This document shows, one piece after another, positions 41,709-52,684 of a stretch of DNA of 64,000 bases (the first letter of the stretch is position 1; every line of letters begins with the position of its first letter). This DNA is from Chitinophagaceae bacterium. GTDB lineage: Bacteria; Bacteroidota; Bacteroidia; Chitinophagales; Chitinophagaceae. Location of the stretch: positions 25,634 to 89,633 of the forward strand of contig JAMLHK010000015.1 of NCBI GenBank assembly GCA_023957155.1, written 5' to 3'. A model generated the notes under the pieces. The model did not search any database and was not told the origin of the DNA. It saw nothing but the letters and a program-made list of their open reading frames with translations. A program made the translations under genes and the position numbers.

Positions 41709-42662
41709 TCATTTACCAAGAGCCTGGTTTACAGAATTATTTAGAAAAGCAGTTAGACGACTGTCGGGTAACAACGCTTTCCCGTTCCACTTATAATTCA
41801 GTCCGTCCAATCTTTCAGCTACGGCGTGCTCTCTGCCTCCTGAAGAAAGGAATACCGGGACAACAATAACGTTTCCGAATTTACCCGCCTGGCGTACTAT
41901 AGCTCTTAATTGTTCCTTTGCCTGGTCGAATATTTCTTTGTTGGCATCATCCCGGACGGTTGTGGCAAAAATTTGTTTGAATCCTTTTCCCCTGGTACTT
42001 TGAATTTTCTCAATTTTCACAGATAAGGATTCCAGGCCGGCGAGCCATTTCTGGTTATCCTCTTCTCCATTTGGTCCATGGGCTACCAGAATTACGGTTT
42101 CATTAGGCGGATTGGTACTGAGTTCGGCGATCCGGTCGCGAAGTATTTCAGCTACCACTGCATTATCATCAAGGGCAGGGGTTACCACTAATTTGGCCTT
42201 TATTTTTAAAGGCTTCAATTCTACTTCCTTCGTATCGTGCGCATGGTGCATAGCCATAGCGTTTCCGCTTCCCATTTGATGCCCTCCCGAGTGCCCTCCT
42301 GAATGGTCCATGGAAGGCATCGGTGGATCAGCAAGTTTATCGCGAAGTCCCAATAAAAATTCTGTCTGCCGTATGACCATGCTATGACTGGAAATAAACA
42401 GCGGGACGGCGATGATTTTAGTTACACCCTGGGCTTCCAGTTCATCAATAGATTTTTGCAGGGTTATCGGGTCAGCCATTCCCCAGGCATGGGAAACCGC
42501 ATATTGTTTGGTAAGGGGCTGAGCTGCTTCCATTACCAGGTTGTTCCACTTCGGACTACCACCGTGAGCCATGATCATTACTCCTGTTTTCTGAGCCTGA
42601 GCTGAAAAACTCATCAAAATACAGGTTAAGCAGGAAACAATAATTTTTGTCAGGTTCATCAT
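41709..42662 (-). CDS. Exported CbiX/SirB-like (sirohydrochlorin chelatase fold) protein with His-rich insert
   Basis: 317 residues with a signal peptide (FSAQAQ). Two CbiX half-domains follow: the first starts VMIMAHGGSPKWN and has the IIAVPLFISSHS strand; the second starts VILVAHGPNGEEDN and ends GNVIVVPVFLSSGGREH. Cobaltochelatases of this fold carry one metal-binding His in such AHG and FxSxG-H loops, and both are kept here. Residues about 135-165 are unusually rich in His, Met and Gly (HSGGHSGGHQMG, then AMAMHHAHD), as in metal-buffering peptides. A periplasmic chelatase is unexpected, since sirohydrochlorin is cytoplasmic; a periplasmic metal-binding or chaperone role is more likely. 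Cobalt or nickel is a guess. Confidence 0.82.
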   Translation of the reverse strand: MMNLTKIIVSCLTCILMSFSAQAQKTGVMIMAHGGSPKWNNLVMEAAQPLTKQYAVSHAWGMADPITLQKSIDELEAQGVTKIIAVPLFISSHSMVIRQTEFLLGLRDKLADPPMPSMDHSGGHSGGHQMGSGNAMAMHHAHDTKEVELKPLKIKAKLVVTPALDDNAVVAEILRDRIAELSTNPPNETVILVAHGPNGEEDNQKWLAGLESLSVKIEKIQSTRGKGFKQIFATTVRDDANKEIFDQAKEQLRAIVRQAGKFGNVIVVPVFLSSGGREHAVAERLDGLNYKWNGKALLPDSRLTAFLNNSVNQALGK

Positions 42663-44330: not shown

Positions 44331-44417
44331 CGGAGAGACAGGGATTCGAACCCTGGGTACAGTTGCCCGTACAACGGTTTTCGAGACCGTCCCATTCAAC
44401 CACTCTGGCATCTCTCC
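44331..44417 (-). tRNA. tRNA-Ser (anticodon CGA)
   Basis: On the minus strand an acceptor stem GGAGAGA/TCTCTCC, a D-arm (GAGTGGTTGAATGG), an anticodon arm ACGGT-CTCGAAA-ACCGT with loop anticodon CGA, a long variable arm (GTACGGGCAACTGTAC) and a T-arm (GGGTTCGAATCCC) are clear. The long variable arm confirms a class II tRNA. Discriminator base is G. Confidence 0.96.
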
Positions 44418-44460: not shown

Positions 44461-46407
44461 TTATTCGGTACCTGCGATCTCCAGTTTGTTGTCTTTAAAT
44501 ATAATAAAGGTGCCATCACCTTTCTTTAATGCTACATTGTGAAGATGAAATTGTTTATCGGGGAAAGCGGTTTCCGAAAATTCAATATTTACCTTATCCT
44601 CCCTGATGTTTAACTGCGTATAAATGAACATAGCAATATCCTGACGTAATCCTCTTGGCGTAAATTCCTTTTCATAAATCAGGGACTGGTCTTTCGATGA
44701 TGTTATTTTTAAGATAACGGGGCTTCTCTTTTTTACTACCGGAACTTTTGCCTGCATGTGTGCAGCACCGGAACTCCCCTGCTCATATTCCATAGGAGTG
44801 GAGATATATTTGAAGTTTACAAACAGGGTTTTTTCCGTAGGACTAAAGAATTGTACGGTGGTGCTGCTTAGTGGGATCATCAGGGCAAAGAAAACGGTGA
44901 GGATGAGTACTGCAGGAATAGGTTTGGTTTTTTCATGGTCAGCAACGGCCATTTGCCCGGGGTTCTTATCATCTTCAACTTTTTGATGAAAAAAGTTGAG
45001 CAGTTTTTCTTTGCTATATTGGGTCAGGGTAAACAACTTTACTTTAGAGGCATCATACTTTTTTGAAAATAAGGGCGCTCTTTTTCTCAGGAACCTGTGC
45101 AGCGCCCATGTTTTCCCTAAGCGGTAATAGCAGTCCTCACAACTCAGCAGGGCTACTTTGTTGCTGTTGTTTTCCAGGATGTGCTGAACGTCTTTAGGCA
45201 TTACGCTTCCGATACAGGGAACCCGGTAGTGAACGGTATTCAGCTGCCCGGGTAGTTCCGGTTCAGGGAAATAGCTGCAACTGAACAAGGTAAGATCAGC
45301 TTTACTTTGAGGTTGCAATGCCACTTCCGGGAACAGGGGATGGGTGATGGCATGCTCATCACAGGAGCCAATGCAGATGGCACACCCTACACATTTATCC
45401 GGTGAAAGAATAGCTTTTCTTTTCCCGTTTTTCATGAGCATGTCAATAGCTTCATAGGGACAATCGTATGAGCAGAGATTGCAGGCATCACATTTGTCCA
45501 GGTCAATATGAACAGGAGGATTGTTTTTTCTCTTAATAAGGTAAGGGATGACGGATAGTAAGACCCCCGAGCCGATTAAGATCATCCAGTTTTGGTTCAC
45601 GCTGAACAGCTTCATGAGATAGTAGCCAAAATAATAATACCAGTCGAAAGTAGTTTGTACCGGCAGATTAGAGAGCTCTGCAGGGGGATCACTTTTTACA
45701 GGGAAGAGAAGAGATATAATACTCAGTGCAATGACAGCATAGAGCATCAGCTTCTTGGGAGGAAATATTTTAGGCTTAGATATGCGAAGCAGGTGTATCC
45801 ATATAATGATTACCGTGATCAGTGAAAAAACAATATGACCAAACAGGGCTACTTTAAAAAAACCGCCTACGGTGGTCAGATCGTTCATCAGGAAAGCGCC
45901 GGCTATAGCAGGATCGAAGATAGGCAGGGTGGAAAACAGCTTTGCCGTAAGATAGCCGGTAAGCTTTGCTTTTTGATCCCATACCAGGATATATCCTGTT
46001 ACGCCTATCATAATGACGATCAGGAACGAAATAATGCCGCTGATCCAGGAGATCAGCCTTTTAAATTTGGATGTAAGCAACGTGTGCAGCAGGTGCATCA
46101 GGATGAAAATGACCAGCAGGTCTGATGAATACCGGTGAATGGTGCGCATCCAGCCGTTAAAAATATTGGCCGATAATGCTTCTACCGAGTCCCATGCATG
46201 GCGCGGATTGATGTTGTAAAAAATAAAGATATAGGTACCGGAAATGCAGGCTACAACAAACAGCAATACCGCAATGCCGCCAAGGTGATAAAGCGGGTTC
46301 AGTTCTGTAGCATAAATCCTGCTCAGGTAAGAAGAAAACTTTTGATACAACTGGTGTCCACGGGTACGTTCTTCAATAACATTTGATTTTTCAGAGTGCT
46401 TATCCAT
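44461..46407 (-). CDS. Cytochrome b / double [4Fe-4S] ferredoxin / MvhD-like fusion protein
   Basis: 648 residues, three redox modules. Residues 40-235 are the N-terminal domain of a Rieske-bc-type cytochrome b: two heme pairs H91/H105 and H191/H205, each 14 apart, on helices of a four-helix bundle. Residues 300-355 hold two [4Fe-4S] motifs, CDACNLCSYDCP (C306-C316) and CVGCAICIGSC (C339-C349). Residues 372-440 resemble the MvhD/HdrD delta-subunit domain, with Cys398 in VPCIGSVMPKDV and C423/C426 in LLSCEDCYYRLG. A TM segment follows near 500 and a periplasmic-like beta tail. The likely job is electron transfer between quinone and soluble carriers, but direction is unknown. Its ATG overlaps the SCO1 stop by 8 bp, so it is co-translated with the oxidase cluster. 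Confidence 0.85.
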   Translation of the reverse strand: MDKHSEKSNVIEERTRGHQLYQKFSSYLSRIYATELNPLYHLGGIAVLLFVVACISGTYIFIFYNINPRHAWDSVEALSANIFNGWMRTIHRYSSDLLVIFILMHLLHTLLTSKFKRLISWISGIISFLIVIMIGVTGYILVWDQKAKLTGYLTAKLFSTLPIFDPAIAGAFLMNDLTTVGGFFKVALFGHIVFSLITVIIIWIHLLRISKPKIFPPKKLMLYAVIALSIISLLFPVKSDPPAELSNLPVQTTFDWYYYFGYYLMKLFSVNQNWMILIGSGVLLSVIPYLIKRKNNPPVHIDLDKCDACNLCSYDCPYEAIDMLMKNGKRKAILSPDKCVGCAICIGSCDEHAITHPLFPEVALQPQSKADLTLFSCSYFPEPELPGQLNTVHYRVPCIGSVMPKDVQHILENNSNKVALLSCEDCYYRLGKTWALHRFLRKRAPLFSKKYDASKVKLFTLTQYSKEKLLNFFHQKVEDDKNPGQMAVADHEKTKPIPAVLILTVFFALMIPLSSTTVQFFSPTEKTLFVNFKYISTPMEYEQGSSGAAHMQAKVPVVKKRSPVILKITSSKDQSLIYEKEFTPRGLRQDIAMFIYTQLNIREDKVNIEFSETAFPDKQFHLHNVALKKGDGTFIIFKDNKLEIAGTE

Positions 46408-47146
46408 GCTGATCTTTTGTAATGATAAAGGATTTTATAAAAAGCCCGCTTACCAGGGTGATCATCAGGAGTCCTGCTGAGGTAGAAATGATAAACCGCC
46501 AGTCCATCTTATACGTTTTTAACACAGGATCATACCCGAAGCAACGCAGGTAAAAGCCTTTGATGATGCCCGGCCTTGTTTTTTCGGCCATAGCTTCCAT
46601 AACGGCAAGCTTAATATCTTTCTTTGAAGGGTTTATGCCATAGATATATCTTGATATCTTTCCGGCAGGGGTTAATACGATGAGTATGGACGGATGATTA
46701 AACTCCTTTGTTGACGGGTCATAATCATATTGGTAGTCAATAGAAGACAGGAATCGTTGAATGTTCTCTCCCGAAGCGGAAATGGTCTTCCAGTTTTTAC
46801 CGTCCATTTTCCACCTGTTTTCATAGGTTGCCAGGTTCATTCGCCGGTCGCTGCTGTCGAATGAAAAACTGACCATCGTAAAATCTTTTCCCAGGCTTCC
46901 CAGCTCTGTAATTACCTGCTGTACCCCGTTGCTGATCACACCACATAATGAATGACACCGGGTATACACCGGTGAAATGACTAATGGCTTTTGATTCAAT
47001 AGCGTATATAATTCAAAATGATTACCGGCAGCATCAAATACTTCAATATTAGCAGCCTGTTGAGCAAGGAATCTTTTTTCGTTGGGGAAATTGAACCCGC
47101 TTAATAAAAGCCATGCCGGTAATATCCATATAAATGCGTATTTCAT
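46400..47146 (-). CDS. SCO1/SenC/PrrC family copper chaperone with C-terminal membrane segment
   Basis: 248 residues. A signal or anchor at the N-terminus (WILPAWLLLSGF) leads into a thioredoxin-like SCO domain: the copper motif CHSLC at 64-68 (TRCHSLCG) and the third ligand His151 (EFNHPS). A C-terminal TM (ISTSAGLLMITLVSGLFI) is additional to the usual single anchor. SCO proteins deliver copper to the CuA site, and the neighbour encodes a CuA subunit. Transcribed after the heme-copper subunit I, separated by a strong hairpin; overlaps the fusion protein gene by 8 bp. Confidence 0.92.
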   Translation of the reverse strand: MKYAFIWILPAWLLLSGFNFPNEKRFLAQQAANIEVFDAAGNHFELYTLLNQKPLVISPVYTRCHSLCGVISNGVQQVITELGSLGKDFTMVSFSFDSSDRRMNLATYENRWKMDGKNWKTISASGENIQRFLSSIDYQYDYDPSTKEFNHPSILIVLTPAGKISRYIYGINPSKKDIKLAVMEAMAEKTRPGIIKGFYLRCFGYDPVLKTYKMDWRFIISTSAGLLMITLVSGLFIKSFIITKDQHG

Positions 47147-47160
47147 ATCAGCCGGGTTAA

Positions 47161-47186
47161 AGATACCGGGGTAGGCCCCGGTATCT
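47161..47186 (-). promoter_or_regulatory. Strong hairpin between subunit I and SCO1 genes
   Basis: AGATACCGGGG and CCCCGGTATCT make a perfect 11-bp stem with a 4-nt loop in the 83-bp space between two co-oriented genes. Little T-tract follows on the minus strand (CTTTAACC), so it may be a stability or processing element or a partial terminator, lowering expression of downstream genes. Confidence 0.55.
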
Positions 47187-47229
47187 TGTTCTCTGTATAA
47201 CAGGGTTTTCCGTGGGTATTATAGTATTA

Positions 47230-48897
47230 TTAATTTACATTCCAGGTAGCTGCCAGCCATTTCCAGTTCAGGAAAAAGAGCGCCAGGAATACCAGCAGGA
47301 ATATAAACGTAAGCACTAAAGTGCCCGGTGCTTCAAATCCCTTATGTGCTTTAGCCGGTGGTGCTAACGGCGAGATGGTAAGCTGCATATCTTCCGGCCC
47401 GTTTACTTTGGGTCCCCAAAATACCGATATCACCACAATCAGGATCCATATCAACGTAGCAATAAAAGCCAGCGTGCCGCCGAGCATCATCAGTGCCCAG
47501 AAAAAGTCAACAGCAGGATTGAAATTATGGGTAAAAACGCCACCGGAGAAAGTAGAATCCCAGTGCCGGCGGGGAACTCCCAATTGTCCTAATACGATCA
47601 TGGATATGGATAACAGGGCTATGCCTATAAAAAACATCCAGGGTTGCCATTTTGCCCAGCCATAGCCTACAATTTTTCTTCTGAAGATCAGGGGGATCAG
47701 GTAATAGGTTATACCCATGAAGGTGAGTGTAGTACCAATGACCACAGTTCCCTTAAAATGTCCCGGGATGGCTATTGTATTATGTACAATGATATTGGTT
47801 TGTTCCATCCCGAAGATCACACCTGTAGTACCGCCAATAAAGCCAAAACCGATAATGGCTAAGATAATGGCGGAGAAAGCCGGGTTTCCCCATGGTGCTT
47901 TTGACAGCCATTGGAATAAGCCTTTATTATATCCCCATCTCCGCTGGGCCGATTCAAATGAAGAAGGAACGGCAAATGCGTGTATCATGGAAGCCAGAAC
48001 GGCAAGATACATGGCATAGCTGGTGTTCCATACCTTCCAGGCGCTGCTCACTCCGGGGTCGGTCAGCAGGTGATGGGCGGATGCCAGGCAGATAAAAAGG
48101 ATATAGAGTACAAAGGCGGTCCGTGAAACTCTTTCATTAATAGAAGTGCCTCCTACGGCCAGGAAAGAAGTCATATACCATATAGACACCATAGCAGCCA
48201 CGTTGATCTGCTGGGAGGAGTGCCCCAGTCCCCACCAGATCAGCTTGTACATTGCCGGGTCAATATTGTCTATCAGTCCAAGCGACCATAAAAAAGTAGG
48301 GATATAAATAAGTGCCCCGGAAGCCAGGGTAATAACGGCAATGATGGCCGCAGTCATCAGTCCGTAAGTAAATAGCGGCATGGTTTCTCCATAAGCCTTT
48401 TCTCTCCTGGCGATCATCAGGTTGCCAAAAAACAGGATCACTGCCAGCAATGCGCCTACGGCAAAGAGGATGATACCTAAGTAATACAACGGATGCGCCT
48501 TGAGCGGCGTATAGGAGGTAAGCATTACATCCGCTTTTCCCATCAGGATAATGATATTGGATAGCACCAATCCGGCAACCATCAGCGCAAAAGCCACCCA
48601 GCCCAGCTTCGGAGCACAAAACCGGGTATTCAGCACTACGGTGGAGCCAAAATACAACCCGGCAATTTCGAAAAAGATGATCCAGAAAATAAGTGCGTTC
48701 AGTCCGTGAAAGGTAACCAGTCGGTAATACCATTCGGCGCCCAGCAGGTGCACGGGCTGGTAACGGGTAAACACCAGCAATAAAGCAGCAGTTACGGCAA
48801 GTAACAGGGAAATAACGGCAAATACTGCGTTGTAGCGGATGAGCTTTTCCGACTGAAGGTCTACTTTAAATCCTGTTATATCGCAAGTACGAAACAT
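47230..48897 (-). CDS. Heme-copper oxidase superfamily subunit I, B-type/sNOR-like, with altered active site
   Basis: 555 residues and 12-14 TM helices. Conserved ligands: H64 in TFHGLN (low-spin heme), H226 in GLGHSSQQINVA (CuB), H275/H276 in SAHHLL (CuB), and H380 in IPGHFKGTV (high-spin heme). Two changes stand out. Position 230, four after H226, is Gln where A- and B-type oxidases have the cross-linked Tyr. Position 382 is Lys where HFH gives the second low-spin heme ligand. Loss of the Tyr is a mark of NO reductases in this superfamily; gene order (subunit II with cyt c, subunit I, SCO1) matches norSY-senC clusters. An oxygen or NO reductase with a CuA donor is therefore possible. Fully annotating it as a cbb3-type oxidase would be wrong on subunit grounds. 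Confidence 0.85.
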   Translation of the reverse strand: MFRTCDITGFKVDLQSEKLIRYNAVFAVISLLLAVTAALLLVFTRYQPVHLLGAEWYYRLVTFHGLNALIFWIIFFEIAGLYFGSTVVLNTRFCAPKLGWVAFALMVAGLVLSNIIILMGKADVMLTSYTPLKAHPLYYLGIILFAVGALLAVILFFGNLMIARREKAYGETMPLFTYGLMTAAIIAVITLASGALIYIPTFLWSLGLIDNIDPAMYKLIWWGLGHSSQQINVAAMVSIWYMTSFLAVGGTSINERVSRTAFVLYILFICLASAHHLLTDPGVSSAWKVWNTSYAMYLAVLASMIHAFAVPSSFESAQRRWGYNKGLFQWLSKAPWGNPAFSAIILAIIGFGFIGGTTGVIFGMEQTNIIVHNTIAIPGHFKGTVVIGTTLTFMGITYYLIPLIFRRKIVGYGWAKWQPWMFFIGIALLSISMIVLGQLGVPRRHWDSTFSGGVFTHNFNPAVDFFWALMMLGGTLAFIATLIWILIVVISVFWGPKVNGPEDMQLTISPLAPPAKAHKGFEAPGTLVLTFIFLLVFLALFFLNWKWLAATWNVN

Positions 48898-48915
48898 AAG
48901 GTTTTGTTTTAGGGA

Positions 48916-49836
48916 TTAGTTTTTTAATGTTTTGATAAAGGCGATCAGCTGTTCAACCTCCTCATCGGTAACCGGGAAAACCGGCATGGGGGTATTTTCA
49001 AATCCAACCGTTATTTTTTGCTGCGGATTTTTTATGGATTCTCTTATATACGCTTCATCTACTTTAACATTGACCTTTTTCCCGTTTTCTATTACAGCTT
49101 CTTCCTTCCCGAATAAACCATTCCAGGCAGGAGCAATTTGGCTGGTTCCGTCTGTTTTATGACAGGCGCCGCAACCTTTCAGGGTGTATACCTGCTCGCC
49201 TAATAAAGCCATCTCTGTTTCCGACAGGGGCTCATTTTTCTTTTCCGGTAGCGGATCAGGCGCTTTCTTGAGATTCTCGTATCCATACAATTTCAGGTCT
49301 TCTTCCTTTTCTATTACTACAATCTTTCCGATCATGGCATGATGCCCGATGCCGCAAAATTCATTGCAGATCACCTTGTATTCGCCGGCTTCCGTTGGTT
49401 TAAATTCCAGTACATAATCATATTGCGGGTAAACCTGGAAGTTCATGTTTACCGGCTGAATAGAAAGTCCGTGTACCACATCTTTGGAGGAAATATGAAA
49501 TCGGTATGACTGGTCTTTCTGCAGGATCAGCGCCGGGCTCCATCTCCACATTTCGGCTACCACAAAAACATCGCTGTTGGGCTGGGGCCTTACTACGGGG
49601 ATGCCGTTATCCGTTCCGATCATATTTTGCTTAGTGTATGCTTCTCCCAGTTTGGCAAACTCTGCGGTGCTGGTACGGTAAGTAATACTGGAAGGATTTT
49701 GTTTTCCATAAACATGCCACATAATCATCCATATAAACATGGCAATGCAGAGGATAAGGGCTATGACCATCCACATTTTTTCATCTTTGGATACTTTCTT
49801 GTTATACCAACCTTCGGCCGGACTGAATAAACTCAT
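48916..49836 (-). CDS. Subunit II with CuA domain fused to C-terminal cytochrome c
   Basis: 306 residues. One N-terminal TM (residues 20-44, VIALILCIAMFIWMIMW) anchors a periplasmic cupredoxin with the full CuA site: H122, C157, E159, C161, H165, M168 (CNEFCGIGHHAM). After a proline-rich linker, residues 210-306 form a class I cytochrome c with CxxCH at 222-226 (GCGACHK) and a Met-containing PMPVFP segment as sixth ligand. It thus accepts electrons by its own heme c and passes them to CuA and subunit I. Eighteen base pairs separate it from the subunit I gene, and 24 from the small membrane gene. Confidence 0.93.
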   Translation of the reverse strand: MSLFSPAEGWYNKKVSKDEKMWMVIALILCIAMFIWMIMWHVYGKQNPSSITYRTSTAEFAKLGEAYTKQNMIGTDNGIPVVRPQPNSDVFVVAEMWRWSPALILQKDQSYRFHISSKDVVHGLSIQPVNMNFQVYPQYDYVLEFKPTEAGEYKVICNEFCGIGHHAMIGKIVVIEKEEDLKLYGYENLKKAPDPLPEKKNEPLSETEMALLGEQVYTLKGCGACHKTDGTSQIAPAWNGLFGKEEAVIENGKKVNVKVDEAYIRESIKNPQQKITVGFENTPMPVFPVTDEEVEQLIAFIKTLKN

Positions 49837-49860
49837 AAAGTGAGGTTTTAGATAAAGAAT

Positions 49861-50046
49861 TTATTTAATCAGGGTTTGTTTGATCTCTTCCGGGATTGCC
49901 GGTAAATTGGAAAGCTCCATTACTCCCCATAAGAGATAAAAAATAGCATAAATTGTTACGCCAAGGAATAGCAATAACATGAAGTCATCCATAATCATCC
50001 TGGAGAATGGAATGTTTTCTTTTTCCTGTTGCTGATTATTTTCCAT
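49861..50046 (-). CDS. Small single-TM subunit of the heme-copper complex
   Basis: 61 residues. A polar N-terminus (MENNQQQEKENIPFSRMIMDD) leads to one membrane helix (FMLLLFLGVTIYAIFYLLWGVMEL) and a short tail. It is the first gene of the cluster and resembles in size and position the subunit IIa of ba3-type oxidases or the orf1-type membrane protein of NOR clusters. Not recognised by sequence alone; the call rests on location. Translation starts near an 18-bp palindrome (50065-50082). Confidence 0.7.
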   Translation of the reverse strand: MENNQQQEKENIPFSRMIMDDFMLLLFLGVTIYAIFYLLWGVMELSNLPAIPEEIKQTLIK

Positions 50047-50082: not shown

Positions 50083-50177
50083 TAATATAAAACTAACAGC
50101 GATATCGTTGAGGATAGCGTATTATGAAGAATTAATATAGCAGAAAATACGATTTCGTACTTTTTTATTTTTCCCCT

Positions 50178-50351: not shown

Positions 50352-51188
50352 ATGGGTATTGATTCTACTATAGAAAAGCTCCTGGCTGAATATAAAATAA
50401 CACTTGAGGATTATATTAAACAGGTGACTTCAACCTTTTCAAAGCAGAACCTCTTTGAATACAATGAGATTTTGCTCTCTGCTCACTCCTGTGCTATCGA
50501 AGGTAATAGCTTTACCGTAAATGATACCCGCGAACTTAAAGAACACGGACTGAACCTCAAACTCCGGGATAAATCCATGCTTGAAGCTTTTGAAATTCTT
50601 GACCACTTTAAGGCTTTTGAGTATTTGTTTAATAACCTGGAGCTGCTGCTCAATGAAAAACTTCTTATTGATACACATAAATTACTTACGGCTAACACCA
50701 TTCAATATACGAAGGGTTATTTGCCCGGAGAATATACCAGGTCGCGCATGGCAACAGGTGATACCATCTTTCCTGATCATGAAGCCAGTATTGCAAGTGT
50801 GCCGGCATTGATGGAGCAAACACAACAGGCAATGAATAAGAAGGCGGTGCACCCTATTGAAATATCAGCTAAATTCCATAAGTATTTTATCTATCTGCAT
50901 CCCTTTCCGGATGGTAATGGACGGATAGGAAGATTGATATCCAATTTTATCCTGGCTAAAGCGGGTGAGCCGCTTATCATTATTGAAGCAAAGCAAAAAC
51001 CGGAATATATTGATATCCTGAAATTCTCGCATAAGCACAATGACCTGAATGTGATTTCCTCTTTCTTTATAAAAACTTCGATCAGCAGGATGAAACAGGA
51101 AATGCAGCAGGCTGCTCAAAATGCCGGGGGAAAAGCCAATGCTGAAAACAAGGATAATAAATCAAGGGGTGTGAAGTTTATTTTTTGA
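50352..51188 (+). CDS. Fic domain protein, class II (N-terminal autoinhibitory helix)
   Basis: Fic proteins transfer AMP, or another nucleotide-derived group, to hydroxyls of target proteins. The 278-residue protein has the complete active site HPFPDGNGRIGR at residues 183-194, with His183 as catalytic base and the Asn/Arg phosphate contacts. Residues 46-51 (SCAIEG) match the inhibitory [S/T]xxxE[G/N] motif, located in an N-terminal helix: this marks class II Fic, kept off by its own Glu50. The tail is charged and short (SRGVKFIF). The last 29 bp of the gene are duplicated 724 bp downstream. It is bracketed by REP hairpins A and B; a typical mobile-region neighbour. Target is unknown. Confidence 0.92.
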   Translation: MGIDSTIEKLLAEYKITLEDYIKQVTSTFSKQNLFEYNEILLSAHSCAIEGNSFTVNDTRELKEHGLNLKLRDKSMLEAFEILDHFKAFEYLFNNLELLLNEKLLIDTHKLLTANTIQYTKGYLPGEYTRSRMATGDTIFPDHEASIASVPALMEQTQQAMNKKAVHPIEISAKFHKYFIYLHPFPDGNGRIGRLISNFILAKAGEPLIIIEAKQKPEYIDILKFSHKHNDLNVISSFFIKTSISRMKQEMQQAAQNAGGKANAENKDNKSRGVKFIF

Positions 51189-51221
51189 TTTTTCTGCAGA
51201 TTGATGTCATCATCGTATGTT
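51160..51221 (+). repeat. 62-bp direct repeat, copy 1 (fic tail)
   Basis: Starts in the last nine codons of fic and extends 33 bp past its stop. It is identical to copy 2 at 51884 in 59 of 62 positions; the last 50 bp are identical. Confidence 0.9.
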
Positions 51222-51228
51222 TCTCCTA

Positions 51229-51252
51229 CTGGTGTGTGTCTTCACACACCAG
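51229..51252 (+). repeat. REP-type hairpin B
   Basis: CTGGTGTGTG-TCTT-CACACACCAG: a perfect 10-bp stem and 4-nt loop. Same orientation as hairpin A and 80 bp before the RAYT gene. Confidence 0.85.
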
Positions 51253-51332
51253 CATGAATTTTCACCTATATTTGTCAGGATACTTCTATAAACATTGCAC
51301 CTGTGAATATACAGCACAAAAGGCAAGGCCAA

Positions 51333-51848
51333 ATGGAATTGCAGGATATTTATTTTTATACTGATACTATTGTTGACTTTAAGCATTTGTTAGAAGATGA
51401 TAACATAAAGCTTATCATAATTAAATCTCTCTGTTATCTGGTAGAGCATAAACTGGTCAGGATTTTTGGTTATGTAATCATGCCTAACCACATACACCTT
51501 ATATGGACGCGCCTTGCATTAAATGGGAAAGAAAGCCCGGCAGGTAGTTTTGCCAAATACACCGCACATCAAATAAAAAAATATCTGCAAACAAATAACC
51601 CTCTGCAATTATTAAATTATTTATCAAACAAAAATGATCGCCGGTATCAGTTCTGGAAGCGTGACCCGCTGGCTATCCCATTAAGTACTATAAAAATATT
51701 AGAACAAAAACTGGAATATATACATAATAATCCTGCGGTTGAAAAATGGGCTTTATGTAACCTGCCTGAAGATTACAGGTGGAGTAGTGCAAGATTCTAT
51801 TTAAAAGGTATTGATGAGTTTTGTTTTTTGACACATTATGAGGAGTGA
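51333..51848 (+). CDS. REP-associated tyrosine transposase (RAYT), IS200-like Y1 family
   Basis: A single-strand DNA transposase-like HUH enzyme thought to spread REP elements. The 171-residue protein carries the HUH motif H53-I-H55 in MPNHIHLIW, the EYIHNNPA helix with the catalytic Tyr129, and the YRWSSARFY segment typical of RAYTs. The ATG at 51333 gives MELQDIYFYT, as in homologues; a GTG at 51303 would add ten residues. The gene sits between REP B (same strand) and REP C (inverted), the standard layout of RAYT genes, so it is probably intact and recently active. Confidence 0.9.
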   Translation: MELQDIYFYTDTIVDFKHLLEDDNIKLIIIKSLCYLVEHKLVRIFGYVIMPNHIHLIWTRLALNGKESPAGSFAKYTAHQIKKYLQTNNPLQLLNYLSNKNDRRYQFWKRDPLAIPLSTIKILEQKLEYIHNNPAVEKWALCNLPEDYRWSSARFYLKGIDEFCFLTHYEE

Positions 51849-51883: not shown

Positions 51884-51945
51884 AATCAAGGAGCATGAAG
51901 TTTATTTTTTGATTTTTCTGCAGATTGATGTCATCATCGTATGTT
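51884..51945 (+). repeat. 62-bp direct repeat, copy 2 (remnant of a fic tail)
   Basis: Differs from copy 1 at three positions. Its reading frame still gives SRSMKFIF followed by TGA, as in a fic C-terminus, so the copy is a gene-end fragment. Its last two bases overlap the stop codon of the Crp/Fnr gene. Confidence 0.88.
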
Positions 51946-52684
51946 ACCAGCGTGTTGTATTACTTTTCTCTTCTTTGGGTAGTGAAGGATGGTTGGAGAT
52001 GCTCCAGAGCCTGGTGGTATTGAGATAGCTGAACTTCTTGGCGGCGCATTTGATCAGCCCTTCTTTTTCAAAGTCTTTCAGGATTTTGGAAACCTGCTCT
52101 TTGGTGGTGCCGGCAAGGTCGGCAATATCCTGCCGGCAAAGGCTGATCCGGAAGCTTTGCTTTTTTTCTTCGTATTGATAAGCTTCAGCTATCATCAGAA
52201 GTGCTTCTGCTACTTTTTCCCGTACCGATTTGTGCGCCAGGTGGACGGCCTTTTTTTCTATGAGTTCCAGTTCGTCCAGGAACTGGTTTATGATTTGCTC
52301 TTTCAGGGTTGGACTTTTTTCCGCAATGTCGCCAAACAGGTCGAAGGGAATATAACAGTACAATACATCCGATACGGCTGTTGCCGAGCAGGAGTAAGAA
52401 GGATGCCGGGTATTGAGCCTGTGACCGAAAATGGTACCCCTGCCGGCAATCCGCAGAATCAGCGGGCGGCCCTGCTTTCCGTTTAGCTCTACTTTGAGAA
52501 ATCCTTTTTTGATAAAGCAAACGCCCTGTATGGGATCGCCCTCGGAAAAGAGCTTCTCACCCTTTTGCAGCGATTTGGAAAGTTTATAGGTGCTGATGGA
52601 CGTGAGCGTCTCTCTGTCGCAGTTATCCAGGATGGAGCAGTTCCTGACTTTGCAGGTAATACAATCGTAGCGGGTGATGGCCAT
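51944..52684 (-). CDS. Crp/Fnr family transcription regulator with N-terminal cysteines
   Basis: 246 residues. N-terminal cysteines C8, C11, C16 and C22 (DCITCKVRNCSILDNC) could hold an oxygen- or NO-sensitive iron-sulfur cluster as in FNR. A cyclic-nucleotide-like beta roll spans about residues 30-145 (SLQKGEKLFSEGDPIQGVCFI, GRGTIFGHRL), and a winged helix-turn-helix follows at about 170-220 (RISLCRQDIADLAGTTKEQVSKILKDFEKEGLI). It lies about 2 kb from the heme-copper cluster, on the same strand but separated by the Fic-RAYT island, and may control that cluster. Its stop codon overlaps the 62-bp repeat. Confidence 0.88.
   Translation of the reverse strand: MAITRYDCITCKVRNCSILDNCDRETLTSISTYKLSKSLQKGEKLFSEGDPIQGVCFIKKGFLKVELNGKQGRPLILRIAGRGTIFGHRLNTRHPSYSCSATAVSDVLYCYIPFDLFGDIAEKSPTLKEQIINQFLDELELIEKKAVHLAHKSVREKVAEALLMIAEAYQYEEKKQSFRISLCRQDIADLAGTTKEQVSKILKDFEKEGLIKCAAKKFSYLNTTRLWSISNHPSLPKEEKSNTTRW

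Follow-up and report, generated by a model that had tools for sequence, protein, structure and literature searches.

The enzymes closest to the system analyzed here are the nitric oxide (NO) reductases of the recently recognized eNOR type, which have been described in Archaea, Chloroflexi and Proteobacteria (PMC8756737, PMC11388526 and PMC4653789, each cited here and below for the accessible parts of its text). The eNOR has been biochemically characterized as an NO reductase related to the B-family oxidases, and sNOR has likewise been proposed as a relative of that family (PMC11388526). The mark of eNOR is a Gln in place of the active-site tyrosine of the oxygen reductases and that of sNOR is an Asn (PMC8756737), and in A. 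maritima the eNOR is encoded in an operon with NirK (PMC4653789). Here we analyzed a five-gene cluster in a 64,000-nucleotide stretch of DNA (the window) from a Chitinophagaceae bacterium of the phylum Bacteroidota (GenBank assembly GCA_023957155.1, contig JAMLHK010000015.1, positions 25,634 to 89,633), which encodes a small membrane protein, a CuA subunit II, a heme-copper subunit I, a SCO1/SenC protein and a cytochrome b-ferredoxin-FlpD fusion protein (Table 1). With a probability of about 0.78, we consider it likely that this cluster encodes a cytochrome-c-fed, CuA-containing NO reductase of the eNOR branch that is used in denitrification, an assignment that is well supported by the family, the active site and the genomic context.

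The low-spin heme of the heme-copper proteins is bound by two histidines, one from helix II and the other being the second His of the HxH motif of helix X, and this arrangement is treated as a fixed feature of the superfamily. The most unusual feature of the cluster, which went unmentioned in an earlier note on this DNA, is that the second of these histidines is replaced by a lysine, Lys382. An eNOR enzyme of R. marinus was reportedly described by Murali et al. (PNAS 2024), and the novelty of both the lysine and the fusion protein is claimed only within the literature searched, since that study may describe either of them.

Active site and family of subunit I

In subunit I, the CuB ligands His226, His275 and His276, the high-spin heme ligand His380 and Gln230 in place of the tyrosine were each found where the earlier note had put them, together with the low-spin heme ligand His64 and Lys382. 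The three CuB histidines and His380 were invariant in the residue table, which places the protein in the heme-copper superfamily, and the claim of an altered active site lacking the cross-linked tyrosine was borne out by Gln230. A Gln was found at the tyrosine position in all 106 eNOR rows, the window included, which had been gathered with a pattern containing QQ, and in 52 of the 52 rows of the clade that shares the lysine (the Lys clade). When a subunit I profile was compared with solved structures, the Thermus ba3 oxidase was the best match (E ~5e-61), with A-type proteins near 1e-16; it was also the best Foldseek match of an AlphaFold2 model with a predicted local distance difference test score (pLDDT) of 85.5. 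The ba3 enzyme (Thermus thermophilus, 1EHK) shares with the window protein its fold and five of the six heme/CuB histidines, whereas Tyr237 and His386 of ba3 correspond to Gln230 and Lys382.

In a sample of 296 genomes from the phylum, 32 (the window's own genome included) contained a subunit I match at E 1e-40, and the GH..QQ motif was present in 12 proteins besides that of the window, seven of them 52-54% identical to it and five, of the Rhodothermus type, 41-44% identical. All 17 further B-type loci that were fetched had a Tyr at the active-site position. A tree of 55 rows separated 46 eNOR rows, including the window protein, from nine B-type rows (eight Tyr-bearing proteins of the phylum and Thermus ba3) with a support of 100/100 and long branches between the two. 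This tree covers eNOR and B-type sequences; references for the A-type, C-type, cNOR, qNOR, gNOR and bNOR enzymes and named sNOR sequences lie outside it, as do the aa3 and sNOR-like proteins of the same genome and the CuB-less homologues described below, which were set aside for their long branches. Subunit I is therein placed in one clade with the eNORs, including the Rhodothermus-type (putative R. marinus) protein, whose position inside eNOR is weakly supported (85/26), and the clade is related to the B-family oxidases. The column of the lysine, one of 566, was retained in the trees.

These results bear on the possibility that the enzyme is a high-affinity B-family oxygen reductase that lost its tyrosine. 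This would agree with the ba3 enzyme being the nearest solved structure and with the retention of all CuB and high-spin heme ligands. However, no tyrosine is present at the ba3 position, nor at that of the cbb3 oxidases, whose active-site Tyr we take to be the residue of helix VII that precedes the HH pair by six positions; the window protein has Ile269 there, and the cbb3 protein of the same genome has Tyr. Furthermore, the clade is separate from the Tyr-bearing B-type proteins of the phylum, and nir or nos genes are linked to the operon in some genomes (see below). An oxygen reductase was therefore rejected and seems to us very improbable. The two findings that the earlier note had named as arguments for an oxidase, namely branching among oxygen reductases and a tyrosine supplied by another helix, were both looked for and neither was found, the first being judged against the B-type proteins of the tree, and the proposal of an NO reductase rather than an oxygen reductase stands as the likely reading of the sequence.

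The earlier note had also likened the cluster to sNOR, because of its order of subunit II, subunit I and SenC, as in the norS/norY/senC clusters, and this label could not be kept. The gene order is indeed present, and sNOR too is a proposed relative of the B-family oxidases (PMC11388526). However, the window protein has Gln230 where sNOR has the diagnostic Asn, as have all 52 Lys-clade rows, and Gln is diagnostic of eNOR (PMC8756737). Moreover, an Asn-type, sNOR-like cluster with the same gene order is found as a separate locus of the same genome (L047, G000:C2:115513-118329), and the eNOR operons of other phyla share the order, which is therefore not diagnostic of sNOR. The identity of the window enzyme with sNOR was rejected, and we regard it as practically untenable. 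Homologues of the Asn-type subunit I, 41-85% identical, were observed in 10 of 39 other genomes of the family that were searched.

The best reading of subunit I is thus that of a predicted B-family heme-copper protein of the eNOR branch in a lysine variant. With the eNORs it shares the Gln for Tyr, the CuB and high-spin heme histidines, the clade, the denitrification context and an adjacent cupredoxin (CuA) subunit II encoded upstream of subunit I, in which the CuA-type motif CNEFCGIGHHxM is present in the window and its relatives. It differs from them in having Lys where eNOR has His at the low-spin heme position, and its subclade has a cytochrome c fused to subunit II.

Lysine at the low-spin heme position

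In the alignment with ba3, His380 of the window protein falls on the high-spin heme ligand His384 and Lys382 falls on the low-spin heme ligand His386. The bis-His pair is therefore absent, with only His64 kept, and because Lys382 replaces His386 we file the enzyme as an eNOR variant and not as a typical member. A lysine was found in all 52 rows of one clade drawn from Bacteroidota, Aquificota and HR21, which represent ~45 distinct contigs, as the rows include the window and at least seven pairs in which a single contig is listed twice with different identifiers. A histidine was found in all 54 other eNOR rows and in the nine B-type rows; the 54 rows include four of the seven first-tier and three of the five Rhodothermus-type proteins, and all 12 proteins of these two groups read His in a separate table. 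In a sample of 394 genomes of the family, 19 others contained a close subunit I, and the 18 that were full length (84-96% identical) all read HFK. Among 80 named loci, the best 80 of 490 relatives, 33 were of the Lys type (identity of at least 64%; Bacteroidota, Aquificota L111-L115 and HR21 L116) and 47 were of the His type (at most 61%). The codons were AAA (25) or AAG (8) for Lys and CAC (35) or CAT (12) for His, so that a switch requires at least two base changes. A sequencing error was rejected for this reason and because of the occurrence of the lysine in 33 of the 80 named loci and in 18 of the 18 close relatives. In the 55-row tree, the Lys clade (19 rows) forms one branch with a support of 100/100, with a single change of state.

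Judged by substitution rates, subunit I is evidently under strong purifying selection: compared with the relative L069, the nonsynonymous divergence (dN) was 0.024 and the synonymous divergence (dS) 1.17, the latter near saturation, and the dN of subunit I was the lowest among the four large genes in all three comparisons made. Other residues are fixed or nearly fixed in the Lys clade, namely Ala68 (51/52), Ala309 (ba3 Thr315), Met364, Trp420 and Leu436, corresponding at four of these sites to changes of Met to Ala (68), Thr to Ala (309), Thr to Met (364) and Ala to Leu (436). His64 and Arg443/Arg444 are invariant across the 106 eNOR rows, which suggests that the low-spin heme is still bound, and we lean towards a heme ligated by His64 and Lys382 as the most economical interpretation of the lysine. 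Alternatively, Lys382 may be no heme ligand at all, the low-spin heme being five-coordinate or absent, for example with electrons passing from CuA straight to the high-spin heme, or the enzyme may have another substrate or an NO-detoxifying role. The replacement of His by Lys removes the normal ligand, and the accompanying changes at 68, 309, 364 and 436 would fit such a reorganization; however, the invariance of His64 and the two arginines argues for a retained heme, and a lysine kept in 52 of 52 rows without drift is what is expected of a required residue. This alternative could well be true, though we rather doubt it.

If this ligation is real, it would be the first low-spin heme in the heme-copper superfamily known to us that is held by a histidine and a lysine. 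A search of the literature for Lys-ligated low-spin hemes in heme-copper proteins, which included the accessible part of PMC8780969, returned nothing relevant; it did not cover Murali et al. 2024, which may describe the lysine. Since the lysine is kept under what appears to be strong selection, both in Aquificota and in Bacteroidota that possess denitrification genes, this family would offer a way to test the effect of a ligand on redox potential and on electron entry.

The cytochrome c domain of subunit II is distributed within the same clade. Among gene-caller proteins of the named loci, a CxxCH motif was present in subunit II of 22 of 31 Lys-type proteins versus none of 24 of the His type; therefore, the cytochrome c may have been gained later within the Lys clade, or it may have been lost in deeper members.

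Denitrification context and electron supply

The genome that contains the window encodes NirK and a Sec-type NosZ, both scoring over curated cut-offs, as well as cbb3 and aa3 oxidases, and a search with PF00115 detected a total of four subunit I proteins. A NirK that scored over the curated cut-off was found in 13 of 20 Lys-type genomes (this one included) versus four of 20 negative genomes of the family (Fisher p 0.0095), and NirK or NosZ in 20 of 20 versus 13 of 20 (p 0.008), the negative genomes being the first ones listed and not a random draw. In some genomes the link is also physical. In one genome (L182, L086 and L106), nosZ, nosD and nosY, identified by BLAST, are located directly upstream of the regulator and the operon, and in L182 nosZ and nos-like genes run on the same strand into the genes for the regulator, the small membrane protein, subunit II, subunit I, SCO and the fusion. 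In Aquificota, nosZ, nosD and nosY are located upstream in L111, and nosD and nosY in L114. NirK is linked in L110, and in L183 the 20 kb around the operon contain NirK together with a homologue that is 43% identical to the Asn-type subunit I. NirK is also found near His-type operons (L037, L041, L119, L127, L151 and L162).

Besides the way in which the negative genomes were chosen, several other points weigh against an NO reductase of denitrification. NosZ alone did not discriminate between the two groups of genomes (16/20 versus 13/20, p 0.48), and linked nos or nir genes were found in only a minority of the fetched Lys-type loci. In a search for NirS the controls gave no signal, and the assembly is 88% complete. 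Because the Asn-type cluster is also present, the window enzyme may not be the only NO reductase of the organism. The function is carried over a real distance, since the Rhodothermus-type eNORs are 41-44% identical to the window protein and none of the five genomes of the phylum sample with such an eNOR yielded a match to the fusion gene. The AlphaFold2 models place no hemes and are thus silent on bonding between the lysine and the iron, and no activity or spectrum of a Lys-type enzyme was found in the literature searched.

In the mechanism that we propose, electrons would enter through the cytochrome b-ferredoxin-FlpD protein. Their source would be either menaquinol, acting at the b-heme/Qo-like region of this protein, or a cytosolic donor, whose electrons would travel via FlpD and the 4Fe-4S clusters. 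Subunit II would take them up with its cytochrome c domain and CuA and hand them on to a low-spin heme with His64 and Lys382 as ligands, and from there they would reach the site formed by the high-spin heme (His380) and CuB (His226, His275 and His276), where two NO would be converted to N2O with Gln230 standing in place of the tyrosine of the oxygen reductases. SCO would load copper, and the Fnr-type regulator may switch the operon on.

The earlier note had taken the fusion protein as a sign of a dedicated electron donor, and a dedicated electron-transfer fusion was supported. It is not special to the window, because tblastn detected it in each of the 33 named loci of the Lys type and in 35 of the 47 of the His type, and eight of the 12 loci without it are shorter than 9 kb; the fusion is thus general to the eNOR branch. 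With the window protein as a query (E 1e-30), a search of 296 genomes from the phylum found it in eight, each of which has an eNOR, and a search of 388 genomes from the family found it in 19, each of which has a Lys-type subunit I. In these two samples, the fusion was found only beside eNOR. In the Aquificota loci L111-L115 it is located upstream of the operon on the opposite strand. Conservation was counted among 68 fusion homologues that had been selected only for their similarity: every aligned row (67/67 or 68/68) retains the four histidines of the b hemes, the eight ferredoxin cysteines are present in at least 67 of the 68 rows, and the counts for the four cysteines of the FlpD domain are 61/67, 66/66, 66/66 and 65/66; an earlier set had been chosen by its ferredoxin motifs, so that its 37/37 count of cysteines was partly built in. 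The AlphaFold2 model of the fusion (pLDDT 87.0, predicted template modelling score 0.85) matched the cytochrome b of bc1/b6f complexes in Foldseek. The closest described proteins are cytochrome b6/ExtP and, within HdrA2, the C-terminal part (ferredoxin and MvhD/VhuD), whose NCBIfam models match the two halves of the fusion below their curated cut-offs; the window protein differs in that it combines both in a single chain, which also has a C-terminal beta domain and lacks the flavin part of HdrA, and in that this type of fusion was found only with eNOR in the sampled genomes.

Electron delivery to the reductase by the fusion is likely. The fusion could instead split electrons, so that quinol oxidation would serve both the reductase and a partner of FlpD in the cytosol, or it could aid assembly of the complex. 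Splitting would be consistent with the cytochrome b fold and its b-heme histidines, with D255 (65/68) and Y258 (61/68) at a place that resembles a Qo motif by eye, and with 4Fe-4S and FlpD clusters that are expected on the cytosolic side; however, the operon showed no protein of the Rieske type, and we consider a role other than feeding the reductase unlikely. A broader proposal combines both parts, namely a two-phylum respiratory heme-copper family in which His and Lys would bind the low-spin heme and to which a transmembrane cytochrome b-4Fe-4S-FlpD protein would be connected as a dedicated conduit. Through this conduit, a low-potential pool in the cytosol could supply NO reduction or share electrons with it; this proposal is tentative, possible but somewhat doubtful.

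A literature search for such a fusion with an NO reductase recognized nothing relevant, Murali et al. 2024, which may describe it, lying outside the search; within the literature covered, the one-to-one link between eNOR and the fusion points to a route of electrons into NO reduction for which no description was found. Putative eNORs frequently carry the wrong label of cytochrome oxidase (PMC8756737), and therefore the N2O-forming capacity of Bacteroidota may be miscounted.

Operon layout, upstream region and neighboring genes

Table 1. Features of the cluster and its upstream region (positions in the window)
Feature	Position	Strand	Basis
Fusion protein, 648 amino acids (aa): diheme cytochrome b, two 4Fe-4S clusters, FlpD/MvhD domain, further membrane helix, C-terminal beta domain	44461..46407	-	Pfam
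SCO1/SenC copper chaperone, 248 aa, with C-terminal GYDP and membrane segment	46400..47146	-	Pfam SCO1-SenC
83-nt gap with hairpin between subunit I and SCO	47147..47229	-	folds at -25.4 kcal/mol
Subunit I, 555 aa, predicted heme-copper NO reductase of the eNOR branch	47230..48897	-	Pfam COX1 E 5.4e-65; residue tables; ba3 alignment; trees; AlphaFold2
Subunit I codon 382, AAG (Lys), low-spin heme ligand position	47752..47754	-	codon and residue tables
Subunit II, 306 aa: CuA cupredoxin domain and fused C-terminal cytochrome c	48916..49836	-	Pfam COX2, Cytochrom_C
Small membrane protein with a single helix, 61 aa, encoded by the first gene of the operon	49861..50046	-	open reading frame (ORF); BLAST homologues at equivalent place
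Palindrome TACGATTTCGTA, candidate operator	50148..50159		TACG-N4-CGTA, upstream of operon
Crp/Fnr-family regulator with four N-terminal Cys	51944..52684	-	Pfam/NCBIfam

All five co-oriented genes reported earlier were present as minus-strand ORFs, with the domains of the four larger ones recognized by Pfam, and the gap between subunit I and SCO was exactly 83 nt and predicted to fold into a hairpin. At the equivalent place in 17 relatives, the gap was 60-144 nt long and folded at -9.7 to -30.6 kcal/mol, values taken without a shuffled control. The recurrence of the gene order in relatives, which the earlier note had suggested checking, was found: all 18 close relatives have subunit II, subunit I, SCO and the fusion in the same order, counting one in which the fusion is broken (L079) and one whose contig stops within subunit II (L073). 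BLAST detected a homologue of the small first gene at the equivalent place in 13 of these relatives, as well as in some of the named eNOR loci. This conservation of gene order is far above chance. In L079 (G630:C19:10710-12615), the fusion gene contains internal stops and subunit I is intact, which could reflect an assembly error or decay.

The SCO protein of the window, presumed to function in CuA/CuB assembly, has a CxxxC motif at 64 and a GYDP motif at ~202. The GYDP and membrane segment follows the SCO domain in the window and close relatives and precedes it in six first-tier and a few other His-type operons, as if swapped.

Upstream of the operon, the distance from the end of the palindrome TACG-N4-CGTA to the first ATG is 101 bp in the window and 90-103 bp in 10 of the 12 relatives tested (not in L070 and L078). 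It occurs once in the window, with 0.43 occurrences expected. A search for a regulon in the same genome gave 40 sites versus 114 for the backward control, with no enrichment; the other exact TACGAAATCGTA falls inside an ORF. A homologue of the Crp/Fnr-family protein is located upstream, on the same strand and within 2 kb, in 16 of the 18 close relatives (not in L072, and L073 is cut by the contig end), and it is possible that this protein regulates the operon; that it would bind the palindrome is a guess. In the window, a gene with a Fic domain and a plus-strand ORF without a Pfam match (50352-51848, plus strand) separate the operon from the regulator, which is adjacent in most of the relatives read. 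Beside five His-type eNOR operons (L035:4559-5002, L036, L037, L038 and L039), a regulator resembling the Rrf2 family was observed; for the L035 protein, IscR and other Rrf2 models scored better than NsrR and none reached its specific cut-off, and it may be an NO sensor.

A second heme-copper homologue of ~420-500 aa (in one case an 883-aa ORF) is encoded near many eNOR operons, for example at L035:5369-6811, and further in L036, L037, L038, L039, L111, L119, L121, L123, L130, L135, L143, L145, L149, L157, L159, L163, L165 and L166. In an alignment of low identity, the adjacent CuB histidine pair was missing in 19 of the 19 proteins aligned, and the HxH motif and the helix II His remain; such a protein is possibly a CuB-less partner or a sensor. 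In a wider tree that included them along with the aa3 and sNOR-like proteins of the window's genome, the branch of the CuB-less proteins was very long and arose from within eNOR. No such homologue was seen near the window operon.

On the other side of the operon, a tRNA gene (44331-44417, minus strand) is located immediately 3' of the fusion gene and might mark an integration site. Farther along, a protein with a CbiX-like chelatase domain, an apparent signal peptide and an insert rich in Met and His is encoded at 41709-42662 on the minus strand and is perhaps an exported metal-binding protein.

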